DNA of 64,000 bases, from NCBI GenBank assembly GCA_021776475.1, contig JAJFFV010000005.1:558001-622000 (forward strand), given 5' to 3'. A program made the position numbers and the translations under genes. This DNA comes from Parvularculaceae bacterium. Its GTDB lineage: Bacteria > Pseudomonadota > Alphaproteobacteria > Caulobacterales > Parvularculaceae. Positions 26,337 through 36,025 of the stretch are shown piece after piece. Below the pieces are notes generated by a model. That model did no database searches. It worked only from the letters and a program-made list of their open reading frames with translations, and was not told the DNA's origin. The stretch's first letter is position 1. Each line of letters starts with the position of its first letter.

Positions 26337-26834
26337 ATGCCCAAAATTACTCTTATCCTCGTCGGTGTTGCCGCTTTAGCCCTTACCGCCTGCGCTGCGA
26401 CTGCACCGGTTTATCAGCAAGCCGCATCCGAAGATGCGTACGGCTATCGCGAAACCCCAATCGAAGACAACCGCTACCGCGTCAGTTATCGCGGCAGAGA
26501 CTCCGCTGCGGCAAATGACTTCGCCTTGTTGCGCGCGGCAGAGTTGACATTAGCCCGCGGTTACGACTGGTTCGAAATAGTTAGTGCAGATACAGAACAG
26601 TTGAGCAGTCGCTCATCTGGATCGAGCGTATCAATCGGCGGATCGACAGGCGGTTATCGAAGCGGCGTTGGTGTTGGCGTCGGCATTGGTCTGCCCCTTG
26701 GCGGCGGAAGTTCAGGCGGCAGTGTGCGGATACTTGAGGTCATTATGGGTGAAGGCGACAAGCCGGATAGTCCGAATGCGTATGATGCCTTTACGGTGCA
26801 GCAGAATATTCGCGGTCAGGTAAACGGACAGTAG
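26337..26834 (+). CDS. CC0125/CC1285-family lipoprotein
   Basis: 165 residues. The lipobox ALTACAA puts the lipidated Cys at residue 19. The conserved region YRVSYRGRDSAAANDFALLR then AAELTLARGYDWFEIV marks this alphaproteobacterial lipoprotein family, after which comes a Ser/Gly-rich stretch (GSTGGYRSGVGVGVGIGLP) and a short C-terminal strand. ATG at 26337 preceded by AGGAG; the frame upstream to 26265 is not needed. It overlaps the convergent pxpC by 19 bases. Role unknown, probably outer membrane associated. Confidence 0.85.
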   Translation: MPKITLILVGVAALALTACAATAPVYQQAASEDAYGYRETPIEDNRYRVSYRGRDSAAANDFALLRAAELTLARGYDWFEIVSADTEQLSSRSSGSSVSIGGSTGGYRSGVGVGVGIGLPLGGGSSGGSVRILEVIMGEGDKPDSPNAYDAFTVQQNIRGQVNGQ

Positions 26835-27754
26835 CCTAACCAGTTCTCGTACAAGGCGGATTTTTTACGCAGGATCTGCCCGGCCAGTTCGGTTGTGACG
26901 CGCATCAAGCGAATCGTATCACCTGGCCGGATTTGCCCCATCAAATGCCGGTCGGCACGGATGACCTGCGCGATCCGAGGATAGCCTCCTGTCGTTTGTG
27001 CATCTGCCATAAGCAGAAATGGGTTTCCGTTCGCCGGGCATTGCACCGTACCCGGAAAGACCGGACTACTTGGAATATCGGGCGTTGATGTTTTTAAATG
27101 CTGACCGATCAGCTCTATCCCCATGCGGCTCGCCCTGTTCGACGCCGCAAAGGGTTCCGAGAAAATTATCGCGCCGCTCGCCGGATCCATGAACTCGAAC
27201 TCCGCTCCCGCGACAACACGCAAGATCCAACCGTCGGAAATGAACGGGGTCAGCGCCGCCGGCGTCGCGGACGGTTCGATGGCGCCGGCGTTCCCGATCT
27301 TCAAAACATCGCCCGCTTTTACAATCCGCCCGTGATGACCACCAAATGACGCCGGGAGATATGTCGATTTTGATCCGAATACCTCATCTGCCCGAAATCC
27401 ACCGGCCACGGCGAGATAAGTCCGCGCACCTTTCCTGACTGGACCCACTGACAACTGATCGTCGATCTGCACCCGACAGGTGTGCTGGCTCTTTGTAGGA
27501 CGACCGTTAAGCAGTATCTCGGCAGACCCGCCAGCCAGTGCGAACACTGTCGGTAGATTGAACCGGAGCGTTGCCCCAGTGAGCGTCATCTCCAAGCCTG
27601 GCGCAGCTGCAGAATTCCCAACCAGACGGTTGGCAAGTGCCAGTGAAAGTGGATCAGCTGCGCCGCAGAAAGGCACACCCATATGCCGCCAGCCAGACCG
27701 GCCCTGGTCCTGAATTGTCGTCAGCAAGCCCGGCTGGTCGATCACAACGCTCAT
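26816..27754 (-). CDS. pxpC: 5-oxoprolinase subunit C (biotin-dependent carboxyltransferase family)
   Basis: 312 residues of the KipA/AHS2 fold. Motifs: TTIQDQGRSGWRHMGVPFCG, ANRLVGNSAAAPGLEMTLTG and TYLAVAGGF. With PxpB and PxpA it hydrolyses 5-oxoproline to glutamate with ATP in the cytoplasm. Its start overlaps the pxpB stop by 4 bases (ATGA), and the order A-B-C is as in other bacteria. Confidence 0.92.
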   Translation of the reverse strand: MSVVIDQPGLLTTIQDQGRSGWRHMGVPFCGAADPLSLALANRLVGNSAAAPGLEMTLTGATLRFNLPTVFALAGGSAEILLNGRPTKSQHTCRVQIDDQLSVGPVRKGARTYLAVAGGFRADEVFGSKSTYLPASFGGHHGRIVKAGDVLKIGNAGAIEPSATPAALTPFISDGWILRVVAGAEFEFMDPASGAIIFSEPFAASNRASRMGIELIGQHLKTSTPDIPSSPVFPGTVQCPANGNPFLLMADAQTTGGYPRIAQVIRADRHLMGQIRPGDTIRLMRVTTELAGQILRKKSALYENWLGYCPFT

Positions 27755-28431
27755 TGATGATACTTCCGATAGAGCGCTTTGAACTCATCGCTTGTGACCT
27801 GGCGAAAAGAAACTTCCATCCCGGCGGCAAGCAAAAAAGGGTTACTTCTGCCTGCGTCGAAGAGTTTTAGAGGAGTGCGGCCAATGATCGGCCAACCTCC
27901 CGGACAATCCAGACTATAAATGCCAGTCTGGCGACCGGTGATGCCAACCGAACCTGCCGCTACCCTGGTCCGCGGCGACGCCAGGCGCGCTGTCTCAAGC
28001 GATTGATCGAGTGCGCCACAATAGGCAAACCCGGGCAGAAAGCCAATCATCTGTATCCGGTACGTTCTCGATAAGTGCCTGGAGACTATCTGCTCCGCTG
28101 AAAGTTCGAGCCTGTCTTCCAGCATCGACAGGTCGAGACCATAAGCGCCTTCATAACAGATTGGGACCTCAATAGAGTCTTGAGAAATAGTTGTGGGATT
28201 CGGTATGTCTCTTAAGTGGACCGCCAGCTTGGCTTGCGCCTCAGACAGGCACCATCGGAGATTATCAAACTGCACGACCACGCCCGACATACCGGGTACA
28301 ACTTCCAACCAGTCACCGGTCTCCCTCAAGGCGATCGCAAGAGATTGCAACAATGGGGCATTCTTGTCGCGCGACTCAATGCACAGAAGGTCATCACCAC
28401 ACGGAGATATGCTGAAAGCATTTGTTGTCAT
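27751..28431 (-). CDS. pxpB: 5-oxoprolinase subunit B (KipI/AHS1 family)
   Basis: 226 residues with the AHS1 motifs: EVVPGMSGVVVQFDNL, ICYEGAYGLDLSML, IGFLPGFAYCGALDQSLE, RTRVAAGSVGITGRQTGIYS and CPGGWPIIGRTPLKLFD. Works with PxpC, and PxpA, in ATP-dependent cleavage of 5-oxoproline. It overlaps both neighbours by four bases, so the three subunits are made in step. Confidence 0.93.
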   Translation of the reverse strand: MTTNAFSISPCGDDLLCIESRDKNAPLLQSLAIALRETGDWLEVVPGMSGVVVQFDNLRWCLSEAQAKLAVHLRDIPNPTTISQDSIEVPICYEGAYGLDLSMLEDRLELSAEQIVSRHLSRTYRIQMIGFLPGFAYCGALDQSLETARLASPRTRVAAGSVGITGRQTGIYSLDCPGGWPIIGRTPLKLFDAGRSNPFLLAAGMEVSFRQVTSDEFKALYRKYHQ

Positions 28432-29195
28432 GGACCGCTTGTCAAAGCTGCTACTGCAAACCCGCTTCGCTCCAGCGCCCTGCGAACAGCCTTCGCCGTT
28501 GCCACGGCATCATCATTATCACCATGCAGACACAGCGTGTCAGCTTTGACGCCAACGTCCGAGCCGTCGCACGCTATGATTGTCTGATGTCCTGCTAGTG
28601 ACAACGCCTGCGCTACGCGCTCGCTAACATCACCAATGATTGCGTCTGCTTCACTGCGCGGGACCAGCCTGCCGTTCGCCAAATACCGGCGATCCACAAA
28701 AGCTTCGGTAAAGTATGGTAACCCCTTCAAATCAGCAATCGTCGAAAATACACAATCCGGCATTCCGACCAGTGCCGCGGCCGGCAACACTTCCAGAACA
28801 CAATCAGCAATCATACCTGAAAAAACTGTATCACTCATCGCATCATTATAAAGCGCCCCATGCGGCTTCACATGTCTAATGGAGATATCAAGATCGGTCG
28901 CGACAGACTTCAGGTCGTACAGCTGGTCCAGAATACTTTGCTTCAAAGCTGCGATCGTCATGTCAAGGGATCGCCGTCCAAACCCCTCCTTGTCGGGATA
29001 GGATGGGTGTGCACCGACCATCACACCGGCTATTTTCGCAGCTGCAAGCGTTGCCCTCATAGTGCTTGCGTCACCCGCATGTCCGCCACAGGCAATGTTG
29101 CAGCTGCTCACATAGCCAAGAACCTGCCGTTCACAATCCCGCTGTGCCACAGTCTGGTACTCACCAAGATCAGCATTCAGGTCAATGCTTCGCAT
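28428..29195 (-). CDS. pxpA: 5-oxoprolinase subunit A (LamB/YcsF family)
   Basis: 255 residues. The family opening IDLNADLGE is followed by VSSCNIACGGHAGD, MVGAHPSYPDKEGFGRR, VKPHGALYNDAM and AFVDRRYLANGRLVPR, all standard for PxpA. It catalyses opening of the phosphorylated oxoproline ring in the PxpABC complex. The gene starts 5 bases after the NRAMP-fold transporter stop, preceded by AAGG. Confidence 0.94.
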   Translation of the reverse strand: MRSIDLNADLGEYQTVAQRDCERQVLGYVSSCNIACGGHAGDASTMRATLAAAKIAGVMVGAHPSYPDKEGFGRRSLDMTIAALKQSILDQLYDLKSVATDLDISIRHVKPHGALYNDAMSDTVFSGMIADCVLEVLPAAALVGMPDCVFSTIADLKGLPYFTEAFVDRRYLANGRLVPRSEADAIIGDVSERVAQALSLAGHQTIIACDGSDVGVKADTLCLHGDNDDAVATAKAVRRALERSGFAVAALTSGP

Positions 29196-29200
29196 AAGCC

Positions 29201-30424
29201 TTATGCACCAAAGAGCTTCGTCGCGACCAGCCAGATCAGTCTGGCGCCGATCAGGAATGCAATCACCACGACACCGCAGCCAAGAATGTTTGCCGTGAGT
29301 GAATTTACGTTATCGCCAAGGATGGCCCGGCGATTCATGGCAATCAACAAAAACACGGCGATGATCGGCAACAGCAATCCATTTGCCAGTTGCGCAAAGA
29401 GAATAATGGAAACAGGTTTCAGGCCCAAAAGCCCAATGCTGGCACCGGTCAGCAAAATGCTCAGCGCGACCAGTCGGAACGGTCGCGACGTGGTCCCTCC
29501 CTCAATCTGAAAACACTCAGTGACGGCATAAGCCGTCGCCAACGGCGCCGTAATGGCAGACGAAAGACCAGCAGCCAACAGACCAATTGCGATCAGCCAC
29601 CGGGCAGCGGCACCAAAAGCCGGCTCGAGCTGGACAGCCATGTCCGCTGCGTTGTTGACCGCGAGCCCGCTGGCAAAAAGGCTAGACGCTGCGGTTGAAA
29701 GGATCAGTATGGAGATGAGCCCGCCAAGGCCGACGGACACAATCGTATCCGTCCGGGCACTTTTGATCGCGCCCTCGCCCTTCCAGCGCTCACCGGCCGC
29801 TGCAGCGTGAAGAAACAGGTTATACGGCACGACTGTTGTTCCGATTAAAGCCAGGACTAACAACAAACTACCATCTGGAATTGAGGGTTTAAGGCCTGCC
29901 AACAACAAGCCAATATCCGGTTTGACGATGATGACCGCGACCAGAAAGGCGGCACACATGATCAAGACTAAACCAATCAGGAAAGTTTCGATCAGCCGAT
30001 AGGTTCCACGCAAGAGAAGCGCCATCGCGATAATTGCTATCGCTGCGATATATAATCTGAATGAAAGACCACTGTCTTTCAGCGCCGCCTCAACCCCAAG
30101 AGCTGCGCCAGTAATGTTGCCAGCCTCATACGCCGCATTCCCAACATATAGCGCTGACAGCACCAACCCAATCGTCAGATACCGCAAATAAGGTGTGTCA
30201 ATCGTCTGTACCAGAACAGATCCAAGACCCTGCCCGGTGACGACACCAAGACGACCCGACATTTCCTGAAGAATGATGGCCGATAGGGTCGCAAACACCA
30301 GCGCCCAGATCAGCGCGAACCCGAAACTTGCCCCTGCCACTGTGCAGGCCGTCACCGTCCCGGGGCCGATGAAAGCGGCTGCGACCAGCGCACCGGGACC
30401 AAAGGGAAGCTTCAATCCTTTCAA
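29201..30424 (-). CDS. NRAMP-fold transporter lacking the usual metal-binding residues
   Basis: 407 residues, about eleven hydrophobic helices of the NRAMP/LeuT fold. In metal carriers helix 1 holds DPGN and helix 6 holds a Met and His (MPH). Here helix 1 reads AAFIGPGTVTACTVAG (Gly20-Pro-Gly-Thr23) and helix 6 reads LIGTTVVPYNLFLHAAA (Val199-Pro-Tyr-Asn202), so the Asp, Asn, Met and His ligands are all gone. The start is TTG at 30424 with AGGAG seven bases upstream. It sits 16 bases after pckA and 5 before pxpA; B. subtilis ycsG beside ycsF is a similar neighbourhood. I infer an organic substrate, perhaps 5-oxoproline. Confidence 0.85.
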   Translation of the reverse strand: MKGLKLPFGPGALVAAAFIGPGTVTACTVAGASFGFALIWALVFATLSAIILQEMSGRLGVVTGQGLGSVLVQTIDTPYLRYLTIGLVLSALYVGNAAYEAGNITGAALGVEAALKDSGLSFRLYIAAIAIIAMALLLRGTYRLIETFLIGLVLIMCAAFLVAVIIVKPDIGLLLAGLKPSIPDGSLLLVLALIGTTVVPYNLFLHAAAAGERWKGEGAIKSARTDTIVSVGLGGLISILILSTAASSLFASGLAVNNAADMAVQLEPAFGAAARWLIAIGLLAAGLSSAITAPLATAYAVTECFQIEGGTTSRPFRLVALSILLTGASIGLLGLKPVSIILFAQLANGLLLPIIAVFLLIAMNRRAILGDNVNSLTANILGCGVVVIAFLIGARLIWLVATKLFGA

Positions 30425-30440
30425 GACGACACTCCTGACA

Positions 30441-32039
30441 TCACGTCCGTGGTGCTGCCGCCTTCACATCATCACCGACATAAGCTTCAAATTTGGCAAA
30501 ATTTTCGACAAACATCGCCGCAAGTTTTGCGGCCTGTGCATCATACGCATCAGGATCAGTCCAGGTATCGCGCGGATTGAGCGTTTTCGAGACGACATGC
30601 GCGGCTTCAAGCGGGACTTCGAACCCGAATGTTTCATCAACCCGGAATTCCACATCATTTAGCGACCCGTCAAGCGCTGCATTGAGGAGTGAACGCGTCA
30701 CCCGGATCGGCATACGCTCACCCTCGCCAAAAGGCCCACCGGTCCAGCCGGTGTTGACCAACCAACATGTGACGTTGTGCTCCTCAATGAGTTTACCAAG
30801 CAGATCCCCATAAACCGACGGATGCCGGGGCATGAATGGCGCGCCAAAACAGGTGGAAAAAGTCGGCTGTGGCTCCGTCCCCAGTCCTTTTTCCGTGCCT
30901 GCCACTTTGGCAGTAAAGCCCGACAGAAAATGATACATCGCCTGTGCCGAGGTCAGACGGGCAATTGGCGGCATCACGCCGAAAGCATCCGCTGTCAGCA
31001 TGATGACATTTTTCGGGTGACCCGCAACACCGTCCAGGCTGGCATTCGGAATGTAATTGATCGGATAGGCGCCACGCGAATTCTCTGCGAGTGTTGCGTC
31101 ATCAAGATCTAACTCTCGGGTTGCCGGGTCCATAACGACATTTTCGAGAACCGTGGCAAAACGTCTTGTCGTCGCATATATTTCGGGTTCAGCAGATTTC
31201 GATAACCGGATCATTTTGGCGTAACAGCCACCTTCAAAATTAAATAGCCCGTCAGGTGACCACCCATGTTCATCGTCACCGATCAACTCGCGTTTCGGAT
31301 CCGCAGAAAGTGTTGTCTTGCCGGTACCCGACAGACCAAAGAAGATCGCAGAATCATCGTTATTACCAACGTTCACTGAACAGTGCATTGGCATGATACT
31401 TTTTTCCGGCAGGAGGTAATTCAATATCGTAAAAACCGATTTCTTAATCTCGCCAGCATAGGATGTGCCGCCTATCAAAATCATCTTGCGGTCAAAATCA
31501 CAGGCAATCACAGTTTCCGTATTGGAACCATGCCGTGCCGGATCAGCTTCAAATCCTGGTAAGTCGATGATCGTAAAACCGGCACCAAATCCGGCAAGCT
31601 CCTCCAGCTCCGGTCGCCGCAACAAATGCCGGATAAACAAAGAGTGCCAGGCAAATTCAGTTACCACACGAACACTCAACCGGTGACGTGCATCTGCGCC
31701 GCCGAAGAGATCCTGGACAAACAACTGCCGCCCTTCGGCATAGGCAAACATATCTTCCTTGAGAGTGTCAAAATTTGCAGGAGACATCTGTGCTGCATTG
31801 TCCCACCAGATATTTTCTTCCGATGCCGGGTGCCGGACGATGAATTTGTCCTTGGCAGAACGCCCTGTATGTTTGCCGGTTTTCACCACCAGCGGCCCAT
31901 TCGCAGCGATCTCGCCCTCGCCGAGACGGACTGCCATTTCGTACAAAGTCGCTTCGTTCAGATTGATATGGGCAGCTTCGAGTTTCTTGAAGCCAAGATC
32001 ATGCAATAGGGCATCCCCGCCCAGGGCCGTCCCGTCCAT
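30441..32039 (-). CDS. pckA: Phosphoenolpyruvate carboxykinase (ATP)
   Basis: 532-residue cytosolic enzyme that converts oxaloacetate and ATP to phosphoenolpyruvate, the entry to gluconeogenesis. Motifs: [31 protein letters not shown], the kinase loop [20 protein letters not shown] with DDEHGW, and [18 protein letters not shown] at 32039 follows GGAGGA at six bases; the frame extends to TTG 32051, which is part of that ribosome site. Followed closely by the NRAMP-fold gene and pxpABC. In many alphaproteobacteria chvI-chvG stands divergent from pckA; here it does not. Confidence 0.96.
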
Positions 32040-32473
32040 TATTTCCTCCAACGACTAACCGCTTTTTATTTTCTATTTGCATACAACCACGGTCTGCCTG
32101 GTGTAAACTAGTAGCTGCTCTTTTTGTGGTTGGTGTAGGATCCATCGGCCCGGACAAGCAGCCGAGGGCACAACGGATGGCTCGATTAGCACGAGAAGGC
32201 AAGCGCCGCGTATGGCCAGCACCAGTGCTGCAACTTGCTAGTCGCAGTTCGCTTTGCATCGCAACTTACTGCCAACGAGTGGCTAAAATAGGCGGATCAG
32301 CGTCATAATAAACCAACGGCCGCACGGCGTGGGCAGAGGGCGCCGGCAAGGAATTCTGCGCTGGATGATCACCTATATCGGGCCGCTGATTATCTGCACG
32401 GAACTAGCCAAATGATCCGTGAAGGCGTATGGGAACACCGAAATTACACGTTTTTAGAACGAAGGAGTAAGCC
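32040..32473. other. Intergenic region between divergent pckA and ugd
   Basis: 434 bases without a supported gene. It holds the ribosome sites of both genes (GGAGGA for pckA, AAGGAG for ugd). A plus-strand frame open from about 32295 to 32490, reading ALDDHLYRAADYLHGTSQMI and further, overlaps the ugd start and has no suitable start codon; it may be a gene remnant or chance. Reading frames at 32126-32308 on either strand lack support. No clear terminator or operator was found. Confidence 0.5.
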
Positions 32474-33805: not shown

Positions 33806-34756
33806 TCAGCAGACCGCCAGGAATACCCCGAACCAGTCGTTGGGATCGCTCCAAAAGCGCTCAAGCCGCCATCCTGCTTCCTCTAACAGATCTGAAAAAC
33901 TGCTCTCACTATACTTGTAGGAATATTCCGTCCGTATCCTGTCACCGCGGCCAAAGCGAAAATCTTTGCCGGCGACGGTCACGATCTGGTCAGCTATAGA
34001 TTCAATATGGATTTCGATACGACTCATTTGTTCGTTAAATTCTGCGACATGCCTGAACGATGACAGGTCAAAGTTTCCGCCGAGTTCCCGGTTCATGCGC
34101 GTCAGGAGGTTTAAGGTGAAGCGTGGGGTTACCCCCTCATGATCATCGTAAGCTCGGACAAGGATGTTTTTGTCTTTCACCAGATCGGCGCTGATTAGGA
34201 GATGCGCACCCGACCCCATCGCCTCGCGCGTGTGTGTCAGGAAGCGGCGGGCTATTTCTGCCGTAAAATTACCGATGGTAGAGCCTGGGAAAAACCCAAG
34301 CTTGCTGTGCTTGTCCAAAAAAGCTTGCGGTAATTGGTATGGCGCCGTCAGGTCCGCGACGATCGGCATAATTTCGATATCGGGGAAAAGCTGGTGCAGA
34401 TCCTCCGCAGCCGATTGCAAAAACTCATCAGCAATGTCCATCGGCACGTAACAAGCAGGTTGCAGCGCGGAGAGCAGATTACGGGTTTTGATACTGGCGC
34501 CGCTGCCAAACTCAACAATCCCGCTTCCAGGCTTAAACAACACGGCCAGCTCAGGCAAAATATTCTCAAATATCGCCGCTTCAGTTCGGGTCAAATAATA
34601 GTCTTTGACCTGCGTAATTTCTTCAAATATTGCCGAACCGGCGGTATCGTAGAGCCATTTGCTCGACAAGGACCGCGGCGCGGCACTTAATCCGCTAATG
34701 ACGTCTTCGGCAAACACATCTTGTGCTGATGCGGCATGTTGCTTTTCCTTGAGCAT
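33806..34756 (-). CDS. egtD: L-histidine N(alpha)-methyltransferase EgtD
   Basis: 316-residue SAM-dependent enzyme that trimethylates histidine to hercynine, the first step of ergothioneine synthesis. Typical features are SSKWLYDTAGSAIFEEIT, YYLTRTEAAIFENILPELA, the SAM site VEFGSGASIKTRNLL, and GFFPGSTIGNF; the C-terminus has RTEYSYKYSESSFSDLLEEAGW. It starts six bases after the egtB stop in the same unit. Ergothioneine is a thiol antioxidant; no egtE-like lyase is in the window. Confidence 0.95.
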   Translation of the reverse strand: MLKEKQHAASAQDVFAEDVISGLSAAPRSLSSKWLYDTAGSAIFEEITQVKDYYLTRTEAAIFENILPELAVLFKPGSGIVEFGSGASIKTRNLLSALQPACYVPMDIADEFLQSAAEDLHQLFPDIEIMPIVADLTAPYQLPQAFLDKHSKLGFFPGSTIGNFTAEIARRFLTHTREAMGSGAHLLISADLVKDKNILVRAYDDHEGVTPRFTLNLLTRMNRELGGNFDLSSFRHVAEFNEQMSRIEIHIESIADQIVTVAGKDFRFGRGDRIRTEYSYKYSESSFSDLLEEAGWRLERFWSDPNDWFGVFLAVC

Positions 34757-34762
34757 AACAAA

Positions 34763-36025
34763 TTAACAATCCCGTGCGAGCCGTAAGCCGGAGAATTGCC
34801 ACCTTTTCTGGGGGTGAAAGAAATTTCGATAGGTTGACCGGATATGTCCGGCGGGCGTTACGCAAGAACCGCCCTTCAATACCATCTGCCCGTTCATAAA
34901 TTTGCCGTTATATTCACCAACAGCACCAGCCGACACTTTATACCCAGGGTAGGGTGTAAATGGACTTTGGGTCCACTCCCAAACATCACCATAAAATCCC
35001 CTTAAGCCACTCCCGTTTTGCGGACGTGGGCGCAACAATTCTGACTCAGCGAAATTGCCTCCTGCCTCCAGCGATCCAGCAGCAATTTCCCATTCATATT
35101 CAGTTGGCAACCGGGCCTCAACCCAACTGGCATACGCAGCTGCCTCAAAAAAACTCACCTGAGACACCGGCGCTGCAAGATCTATTGGTTGCAAGCCTCG
35201 CAGAGTCATATTTTGCCATACACCGTCCGTATACTCCCAATAGAGTGGCGCTACCCAGCTCTCTTGTCGCAAAATATCCCAACCATCTGCCAGCCACAAA
35301 CTTGCATTCGCGTACCCACCGTCCTCCAGGAAGGCGAGCCATTCCCCGTTTGTCACCGCCCGATCCGCAACTTCAAAAGGTGACAGCAGAACGTCATGCC
35401 GCGGCGTCTCGCAATCAAAACAAAAACTGCCCTCGCCATGGCCTACCGCACGAACGCCGCCGTCAAATGCGTGCCAGGTGATTTCCTCAACACGTCCACA
35501 ATTAACTTCCAGCGGCACCGGATTTCTATATGCTGGTCGTATCGGGTTTTGTGCAAAAAGATGGAGAATATCCGTCAGTAACAACTCTTGATGTTGCTCT
35601 TCGTGATGAAGGCCAAGTTCGACCAGCCTACAAATCTCCAATCTGCGCACGCTGCCGAAAAACGTCGACATTGCGTCATCCACATATTGACGATACGCCA
35701 GTATTTCGTCCTGGGGCGGGCGGGTGAGCAGTCCTCGAAACGATCTTGGATGCCGAGCGCCAACCGCCTCATAATAAGAATTGAACAGATAATCATACGC
35801 CGGATCGAAGCGTTGGTAATTCTTGACATTAGCCGCGAGAATAAATGTCTCGAAAAACCAGCTCGTATGCGCCAAATGCCATTTTGCCGGGCTTGCATCT
35901 TCCATCGATTGCACAGTTGCATCAGCCTCAGACAGGCTGGCTGCAAGAGACACACTTCGCTGTCGCACACTCTCATATTTCTTTTGGAGAACAGGAAGGT
36001 CAGGTGCTGATAGTCGATTTGGCAA
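34763..36025 (-). CDS. egtB: Hercynine oxygenase EgtB
   Basis: 420-residue non-heme iron enzyme that joins hercynine to a thiol donor (gamma-glutamylcysteine or cysteine) with oxygen. N-terminal DinB-like domain: KWHLAHTSWFFETF and GLHHEEQHQELLLTDIL, giving iron ligands around His50/His53, His141 and His145. The C-terminal formylglycine-generating-like domain has EVADRAVTNGEWLAFLEDGG, RLPTEYEWEIAA, GDVWEWTQSPFTPYPGY and GGSCVTPAGHIRSTYRNFF. The start is TTG at 36025 with AAGGAG six bases upstream. Leads the egtB-egtD pair. Confidence 0.95.
   Translation of the reverse strand: MPNRLSAPDLPVLQKKYESVRQRSVSLAASLSEADATVQSMEDASPAKWHLAHTSWFFETFILAANVKNYQRFDPAYDYLFNSYYEAVGARHPRSFRGLLTRPPQDEILAYRQYVDDAMSTFFGSVRRLEICRLVELGLHHEEQHQELLLTDILHLFAQNPIRPAYRNPVPLEVNCGRVEEITWHAFDGGVRAVGHGEGSFCFDCETPRHDVLLSPFEVADRAVTNGEWLAFLEDGGYANASLWLADGWDILRQESWVAPLYWEYTDGVWQNMTLRGLQPIDLAAPVSQVSFFEAAAYASWVEARLPTEYEWEIAAGSLEAGGNFAESELLRPRPQNGSGLRGFYGDVWEWTQSPFTPYPGYKVSAGAVGEYNGKFMNGQMVLKGGSCVTPAGHIRSTYRNFFHPQKRWQFSGLRLARDC

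Follow-up and report, generated by a model that had tools for sequence, protein, structure and literature searches.

What does a transporter of the NRAMP family carry once every residue that binds metal in that family has been replaced? The question is raised by a gene at positions 29201-30424 of the stretch of DNA analysed here (hereafter the window), 64,000 nucleotides of contig JAJFFV010000005.1 from a Parvularculaceae bacterium, in which it lies beside the genes for the 5-oxoprolinase PxpABC. We propose that its product is an importer of 5-oxoproline, a reading to which sequence comparison and gene linkage lead us to assign a probability of about 0.8. The protein has the NRAMP fold and has lost all four metal ligands; one fixed set of residues has taken their place throughout a separate branch of the family, and that branch is linked to PxpABC and to an unrelated enzyme of the hydantoinase/oxoprolinase type. 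An earlier reading made from the letters of the window (the sequence-only reading) had suggested that this branch carries an organic solute, perhaps 5-oxoproline for PxpABC; the linkage to two unrelated enzymes lends support to that suggestion, with the identity of the substrate as the step that we infer.

A substrate site without metal ligands

An alignment of 180 NRAMP-family proteins was scored at the four metal-ligand columns. Canonical MntH proteins carry D, N, M and H there in 32 of 33 cases (the remaining sequence is incomplete and reads --MH), whereas all 89 proteins of the window branch, the window protein counted, carry G, T, V and Y. Helix 1 of the window protein reads I-G20-P-G-T23 and helix 6 reads V-V199-P-Y201-N, and the alignment thus agrees with the sequence-only reading, which had noted GPGT in helix 1 and VVPYN in helix 6 and concluded that all four ligands were gone. 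A second ligand-less branch, here called the YcsG type, shows G, F, G and Y in 10 of 10 proteins. Since one fixed set of residues replaces the four ligands, the change amounts to a rebuilding of the site and not to its decay. The gene and the codons in question are as follows.

29201..30424, minus strand: gene of the NRAMP-fold transporter, of a branch resembling the published orphan outgroup discussed below, proposed 5-oxoproline importer (407 residues, TTG start)
30356..30367, minus strand: codons of G20-P21-G22-T23, the helix-1 break (D-P-G-N in MntH); G20 and T23 occur in 89 of 89 branch members
29822..29830, minus strand: codons of V199-P200-Y201, the helix-6 break (M-P-H in MntH); V199 and Y201 occur in 89 of 89

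The protein matches PF01566 with 276.3 bits over residues 25-375 (gathering score 29.8), and an AlphaFold model built from the window protein and 59 relatives has a mean predicted local distance difference test score (pLDDT) of 93.4 and a predicted template modelling score (pTM) of 0.92. The model shows the LeuT fold of the APC superfamily and interrupts helix 1 at residues 19-20 and helix 6 at residue 199, so that the structure prediction called for by the sequence-only reading puts the changed residues at the substrate site. Because the modelled helices break at the replaced residues, these correspond in the model to an unwound substrate site and not to a misalignment there. The best solved match is DraNramp (Z 49, root-mean-square deviation 2.3-2.5, 374-386 residues aligned), followed by EleNRMT and BfraNramp; below the NRAMPs come the amino-acid transporters AgcS, AdiC and ApcT (Z 29-30), and MHP1 with a hydantoin compound is one of the weaker Foldseek matches.

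Metal ligands moved by a few residues were also considered. When positions were screened for D, E, H, C, M, K or R with at least 85% conservation across the branch, M55, R58, E100, E146, M156, H206, D226 and D261 remained. Three of these (E146, H206 and D226) are the same residues in MntH; M156 in helix 5, present in 89 of 89, has no counterpart in MntH; and E100 in helix 3 (Glu in 80 and Gln in 9 of the 89) lies opposite an Asp of MntH in our alignment. The helix-3 Glu of MntH falls opposite N103 (Asn in 89 of 89), with a 5-residue gap, both in that alignment and in HMMER pairwise alignments, and the outgroup letters as listed in PMC10606218 seem to imply another register, in which E100 would be the kept Glu. 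On this survey a metal site remade from displaced ligands is unlikely in the window branch.

The groupings agree between a quick tree of 85 proteins and a more careful one of 67, from which ten site columns were removed. In the careful tree the window branch forms its own clade (support 97/86), as do MntH (100/100) and the YcsG type (100/100), neither of which includes the window protein, and the groups with an acid retained at the position of the helix-1 Asp cluster without the window branch (92/89 in the careful and 95 in the quick tree). A position inside the true metal transporters, which the sequence-only reading had named as a test of its view, is thus not what the trees recover: the branch stands apart from MntH, although an approximately unbiased (AU) test did not reject the two as a single clade (p = 0.068). 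Nor was a single clade of the window branch and the YcsG type rejected (p = 0.199), a grouping absent from the free tree; the long YcsG-type and GxGD branches meet in the careful tree, and their mutual order is unsure. Median identities of the window protein are 51% within its own branch, 26% with MntH and 20% with the YcsG type. The window protein is not of the YcsG type, with which the sequence-only reading had proposed to align it: an orthologous relationship to YcsG is rejected on an identity of only 18-20% to the Bacillus subtilis YcsG model (9a52) together with the separate clade.

Linkage to two unrelated enzyme types

The 89 members of the branch comprise the window protein, 80 loci from a genome scan with a four-sequence alignment, three further genome loci, three on plasmids and two from the phylum of Streptomyces. 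At 51 of them pxpA lies within 1.5 kb, always on the same strand and in 40 cases across a gap of between -9 and +57 bases; at 17 the genes within 1.5 kb are of the hyuA/hyuB type (15 on the same strand, 2 divergent). PxpABC is an ATP-dependent 5-oxoprolinase according to published work cited in PMC13274462. It has no Pfam family in common with HyuA/HyuB. Twelve of the 17 hyu-type enzymes are fusions of about 1200 residues, and the three whose domains were checked contain Hydant_A_N, Hydantoinase_A and Hydantoinase_B, in what we take to be the architecture of the single-chain ATP-dependent 5-oxoprolinase. For one enzyme of this type (L064, Henriciella) the nearest PDB chains are an N-methylhydantoinase and then a chain that its depositors name 5-oxoprolinase.

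The pairing with hyu-type genes extends to distant hosts. On two haloarchaeal plasmids (L047 and L048) split hyuA-hyuB genes, annotated as hydantoinase/oxoprolinase, directly follow the transporter stop, with a gene of the aspartate/glutamate racemase family downstream at L047; a CopG-family regulator gene lies just upstream of the transporter on both. One of the two loci from the phylum of Streptomyces has hyuA and hyuB and the other has hyuA up to the end of the locus; at L160, of the same phylum, hyuA is downstream and the upstream gene matches the D-glutamate cyclase of an Acinetobacter locus described below (L138) with 278 bits. Mapped on a quick tree of the 89 proteins, with unlabelled rows omitted and 24 of 86 inner branches weak, the pxp or hyu label changes four times, and the consensus of helices 1, 6 and 10 is identical at the conserved positions in the pxp-linked and hyu-linked sets. 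Given two unrelated enzymes and one unchanged site, the simplest common factor is the substrate 5-oxoproline, and this exchange of enzymes is the chief argument for it.

As a control, 82 other NRAMP-family genes outside both ligand-less branches were inspected: none showed pxpA within 1.5 kb (34 of them extend that far on both sides), and one showed a hyu gene. The latter (L175, phylum of Streptomyces) is a second PF01566-type transporter, of the GxGD kind, that sits beside a window-branch NRAMP-hyuA-hyuB cluster. Of 299 genomes sampled evenly across the window's phylum, its own genome included, 8 contained the window branch (417-583 bits, next match 236). Seven of these 8 holders have pxpA, against 85 of the 291 other genomes (92 of 299 overall; one-sided Fisher test, p = 0.0013, or 0.0038 without the window's genome), and in the eighth (G087) a 1216-residue hydantoinase-type enzyme adjoins the transporter.

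In the window itself the sequence-only reading had placed the transporter 5 bases before pxpA, and the coordinates of the open reading frames give exactly this gap. The minus-strand order is pckA, transporter, pxpA, pxpB and the pxpC-type gene.

30441..32051, minus strand: pckA, ATP-type phosphoenolpyruvate carboxykinase (PEPCK_ATP), 16 bases upstream of the transporter on the same strand
30425..30440, minus strand: 16-base gap between the pckA stop and the transporter start, containing AGGAG, which resembles a ribosome-binding site
28428..29195, minus strand: pxpA, 5-oxoprolinase subunit A, LamB/YcsF family (PF03746, 263 bits; NF003814 above cut-off)
27751..28431, minus strand: pxpB, 5-oxoprolinase subunit B (PF02682, 187 bits; TIGR00370 above cut-off), overlapping pxpA by 4 bases
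26816..27754, minus strand: pxpC-type carboxyltransferase subunit (PF02626, 277 bits; TIGR00724 above cut-off), overlapping pxpB by 4 bases

The AGGAG stretch lies 7 bases ahead of the TTG start, and the transporter and pxpA-pxpB-pxpC are probably on one transcript. The third pxp gene, named oxoprolinase/urea amidolyase family by NCBIfam, scores 234 bits with the PxpC equivalog NF045499, under the cut-off of 500. The pckA gene was rejected as a general operon partner and treated as local, since it was matched near the transporter in only one of the 80 scanned relatives (L102, about 3 kb off); it may nevertheless share the transporter's transcript here, which would fit gluconeogenesis from glutamate. 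Elsewhere in the window, at 33806-36025 on the minus strand, two open reading frames named by eye from their translations resemble an EgtD-type methyltransferase and an EgtB-type sulfoxide synthase (ergothioneine).

Proposed mechanism and rival explanations

The glycine-rich helix breaks of amino-acid transporters of the APC superfamily offer backbone amides to the carboxylate of the solute. In the mechanism that we infer, which covers substrate, direction, coupling ion and pocket contacts, the window protein would be a secondary transporter of the NRAMP/LeuT fold and would bring 5-oxoproline (pyroglutamate) into the cell, probably together with a proton or another ion. The G-P-G-T break of helix 1 would present backbone amides and its threonine to the solute carboxylate; the rest of the pocket may be lined by V-P-Y (helix 6), N103 (helix 3) and N348-G349 (helix 10), with E100, also in helix 3, as a candidate proton carrier, both being guesses from conservation. 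PxpABC would then turn the imported 5-oxoproline into glutamate.

Several observations weigh against this proposal. The proportion of 68 linked members in 89 is too high an estimate of adjacency for the entire branch, 80 of the 89 having been chosen as nearest relatives, and the Fisher value of 4e-29 for 68/89 versus 0/81 (L175 set aside) is a description and not a clean probability, the 89 members being related and the control flanks incomplete (only 34 of the 82 controls extend at least 1.5 kb on both sides, and of the 48 that extend less, 7 have under 1 kb). In the genome sample, an oxoprolinase gene adjoins the transporter in only 3 of the 8 holders, the window among them; the other five are all from family f21, and their pxpA lies at another place in the genome. 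These five carry little weight, because they represent a single family and because f21 genomes without the branch (G007 and G299) also have pxpA. The enzymes of about 1200 residues could act on another lactam. The searched literature yielded no function and no uptake measurement for the window branch, and no link between this branch, or any NRAMP, and hydantoinase-type enzymes. Neither enzyme lies within 1.5 kb at 21 of the 89 loci, 4 of which reach a contig end within that distance, and in one of these genomes, a metagenome-assembled one (L086), neither enzyme family was matched at all.

The whole genomes of 19 of these 21 loci (all except L066 and the plasmid L046) were searched, and 14 have pxpA elsewhere, about 2 kb away at L072 (hence within 6 kb) and further off in the rest. 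The genome of L083 has a full-length hydantoinase-type frame of 1211 residues, that of L078 a match split across two frames, while for L070 and L077 the match is a hydantoinase B whose kind is uncertain. A look for a third partner among ten neighbour proteins at 8 of the 21 loci yielded none: they belong to unrelated families (chemoreceptor, malic enzyme, acyl-CoA dehydrogenase, aminotransferase and others) or to no family. On the Pseudoalteromonas plasmid L046 the window-branch transporter lies directly behind soxR, with no oxoprolinase within 6 kb.

The fold and the family are those of metal carriers, and the protein might import divalent metal through a site that is shifted or carbonyl-based and so provide the cell or PxpABC with Mn2+ (or Mg2+). 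It scores 93 bits with the NCBI Nramp_1 equivalog NF037982, 'Nramp family divalent metal transporter', above the cut-off of 50, so that automatic annotation would label the window gene a metal transporter, the name that database records indeed give to window-branch proteins. The gene is the sole PF01566 gene of its 3.4-Mb genome (G000), in which no PF01297 binding protein (ZnuA/SitA type) was found and one ZIP match of 44.5 bits was, so that another route for Mn is not obvious. Mn roles have been reported for ligand-less relatives of the YcsG type: B. subtilis YcsG has been renamed MntG as a Mn importer, its overexpression raised cellular Mn and MntR binds the ycsG operon promoter (PMC10448178), and an Acinetobacter baumannii mumT deletion lowers Mn, which mumT restores (PMC5050338). 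YcsG/MntG and MumT are members of the other ligand-less branch; even so, they make clear that the loss of ligands does not by itself decide the substrate. EleNRMT, too, is described as carrying Mg2+ and Mn2+ without the canonical motif (PMC8806188), the MntH residues H206, Q345, Q53 and E146 are kept in at least 88 of the 89 members, and Cellier's text seems to equate E100 with the Glu in helix 3 of MntH, a residue that in BfraNramp binds Mn (PMC12873925). Set against this, the four ligand positions hold no D, N, M or H in any of the 89 members, the signature Asp of the NRMTs is G in the window branch, the helix-3 Glu falls opposite Asn in all 89 in our alignment and in HMMER's, and a supplier of metal need not follow the common substrate across an exchange of enzymes; metal import is, in our estimation, quite improbable.

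The solute could also be another small lactam, a hydantoin or a D-compound such as 5-oxo-D-proline, with 5-oxo-L-proline as a side substrate. The HyuA/HyuB family includes hydantoinases, and the best PDB match above is one; NCBIfam caprolactamase models match below their cut-off; a racemase family gene and a D-glutamate cyclase-like gene lie at L047 and L160; and the MHP1-hydantoin structure is among the weaker Foldseek matches. What makes this improbable is that PxpABC is a published 5-oxoprolinase whose pxpA adjoins 51 of the 89 members, and that 5-oxoproline is the common denominator of both enzyme families. Direction, for its part, is not readable from sequence, and 5-oxoproline is reported to arise spontaneously in cells (PMC13274462), which would fit an outward carrier, overflow valve or sensor releasing internal 5-oxoproline; coupling to a degrading enzyme, however, makes import the simpler assumption, and the analogous pxpT is reported as necessary for growth on external 5-oxoproline (PMC13274462), leaving export a very slim prospect. 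The helix-3 register, the control flanks and the presence of the window's own genome in the sample left our estimate for 5-oxoproline import unmoved, because the exchange of enzymes does not rest on them.

Relation to known NRAMP-fold transporters

The ten YcsG-type sequences come from Bacillus badius, Acinetobacter, Klebsiella, Moraxella, Thioclava, Lactiplantibacillus and Ilyobacter records and three further genomes; PxpT of Corynebacterium glutamicum and YcsG of B. subtilis, whose own sequences are not in the alignment, were placed with them through their published 50% identity (PMC13274462), gene order and the weak sequence identity between the YcsG model and the window protein. The genes of the ten sequences have pxpA within 1.5 kb at 8 of the 10 loci and within 6 kb at 9, in the order pxpA-NRAMP-cyclase in B. 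badius. Deletion of pxpT abolished growth of C. glutamicum on 5-oxoproline, according to authors who do not exclude metals (PMC13274462).

MumT is described as a Mn importer of an operon, mumTLUHC, with urea enzymes (PMC5050338). An A. baumannii locus with the gene order of the mum operon (L138:6712-14172, strain X4-300, NZ_CP064203.1) encodes a YcsG-type NRAMP with G, F, G and Y, PxpA, a D-glutamate cyclase (PF07286), a protein with CT_C_D and CT_A_B domains (a fused PxpBC) and a biotin carboxylase with a biotinyl domain, behind a LysR-like open reading frame for which the regulator label comes from the description in PMC5050338. Judged by its domains, the 'manganese and urea' operon of A. 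baumannii is a PxpABC-type cluster. No amidase domain was found in the L138 gene at the mumH place, which showed only CT_C_D and CT_A_B, and on these domains the designation of the mumH product as 'allophanate hydrolase' appears doubtful. The measured mum phenotypes stand, and an indirect cause of their Mn component is worth testing.

A biotin carboxylase accompanies PxpA and PxpB/C at seven of the ten YcsG-type loci (L134, L136, L137, L138, L139, L043 and L044), which suggests a biotin-dependent variant of 5-oxoprolinase there, and a D-glutamate cyclase-like gene occurs at L043, L044, L137, L138, L139 and L135. YcsG-type NRAMP genes also match 168 records of a plasmid collection, 93 of them from Klebsiella; the one inspected, L139, has a GntR-NRAMP-PxpA-cyclase-PxpBC-BC cluster. 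The plasmid of Ilyobacter polytropus (L140) carries a YcsG-type NRAMP gene whose surroundings contain ZIP, ferritin-like and desulfoferrodoxin genes but no pxp genes.

Loss of the ligands in such PF01566 proteins is already published (PMC10606218, PMC12873925). Cellier splits PF01566 into Slc11, an 'orphan' outgroup and NRMT, and has mutated Slc11 proteins in silico to outgroup residues (PMC10606218, PMC9606685). The letters given for the outgroup in PMC10606218 are D to G and N to T in helix 1, 'GYGNGG' with four invariant G residues in helix 3, T, V and Y in helix 6, N to T in helix 7, A-N-G in helix 10 and G in helix 11. The consensus of the window branch repeats them in the same order (G20, T23; G95, Y99, G102, N103, G106, G110; T196, V199, Y201; A344, N348, G349; G393), except that the helix-7 T is S in 66 of the 89 members, and the published helix-3 alignment seems shifted relative to ours. 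Matched in this way, by the letters named in print read through our alignment, the window branch is very probably Cellier's Slc11 orphan outgroup. In the accounts of the outgroup consulted (PMC10606218, PMC9606685) we found no function assigned to it. Ray, Berry and Gaudet describe Nramp-related proteins as paraphyletic, with MntG in a 'G-motif 3' group and the groups besides that one and the NRMT-like proteins entirely uncharacterized (PMC12873925).

The proposal thus offers a testable substrate for a PF01566 branch that the literature consulted here calls orphan or uncharacterized, and a case in which one transporter branch remains tied to 5-oxoproline although the enzyme beside it changes. 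The proposal is also relevant to the dispute over whether the YcsG-type protein carries 5-oxoproline (as PxpT) or Mn (as MntG and MumT), and it points to a possible organic-solute ancestor for a family of metal transporters. As a tentative extension, which we hold to be somewhat short of an even chance, the ligand-less NRAMP divisions might be chiefly carriers of small organic acids, above all 5-oxoproline, with at least two branches (that of the window and YcsG/PxpT/MumT) serving oxoprolinases; the true NRAMP metal site would then have arisen from such an ancestor, and MntG and MumT would be 5-oxoproline carriers whose Mn effects are indirect.

Among characterized systems, MntH and DraNramp share with the window protein the fold (Z 49), 24-28% identity and several framework residues. 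The window protein differs from them in lacking D-x-x-N (DPGN) in helix 1 and M-P-H in helix 6, in its separate branch and other gene neighbours and in the 5-residue gap of helix 3, and it stays below the cut-offs of the MntH models (NF001923, 165 bits against 430; TIGR01197, 86 against 272.5). EleNRMT, an NRMT Mg2+ transporter, is similar in fold (Z 45-46) and in the absence of the canonical motif, but NRMTs are described as keeping the helix-1 Asp in the signature DxxG-TxxA/T (PMC8806188), which the window protein lacks, with G at the Asp position in 89 of 89 branch members. The neighbouring enzyme resembles PxpABC in having pxpA, pxpB and a pxpC-type gene in order, and differs in a third gene that falls under the PxpC equivalog cut-off. 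The closest parallel is PxpT/YcsG, an NRAMP-fold protein whose gene adjoins pxpA-B-C and which, as PxpT, is needed for growth on 5-oxoproline (PMC13274462). The window protein shares with the YcsG-type sequences the pxpABC adjacency, the absence of metal ligands, G at the Asp and Y at the His position, N103, N348 and mostly G349; it lies on a separate branch (97/86 as opposed to 100/100) at a median identity of 20%, with GTVY for GFGY, and its P200, N202, H206 and Q345 are G, I, G and G in the YcsG type. An NRAMP-fold carrier of 5-oxoproline was already known, in one branch and by genetics; what is added here is a distinct, hitherto orphan branch whose site has been rebuilt in another way and which pairs with either of two enzymes.

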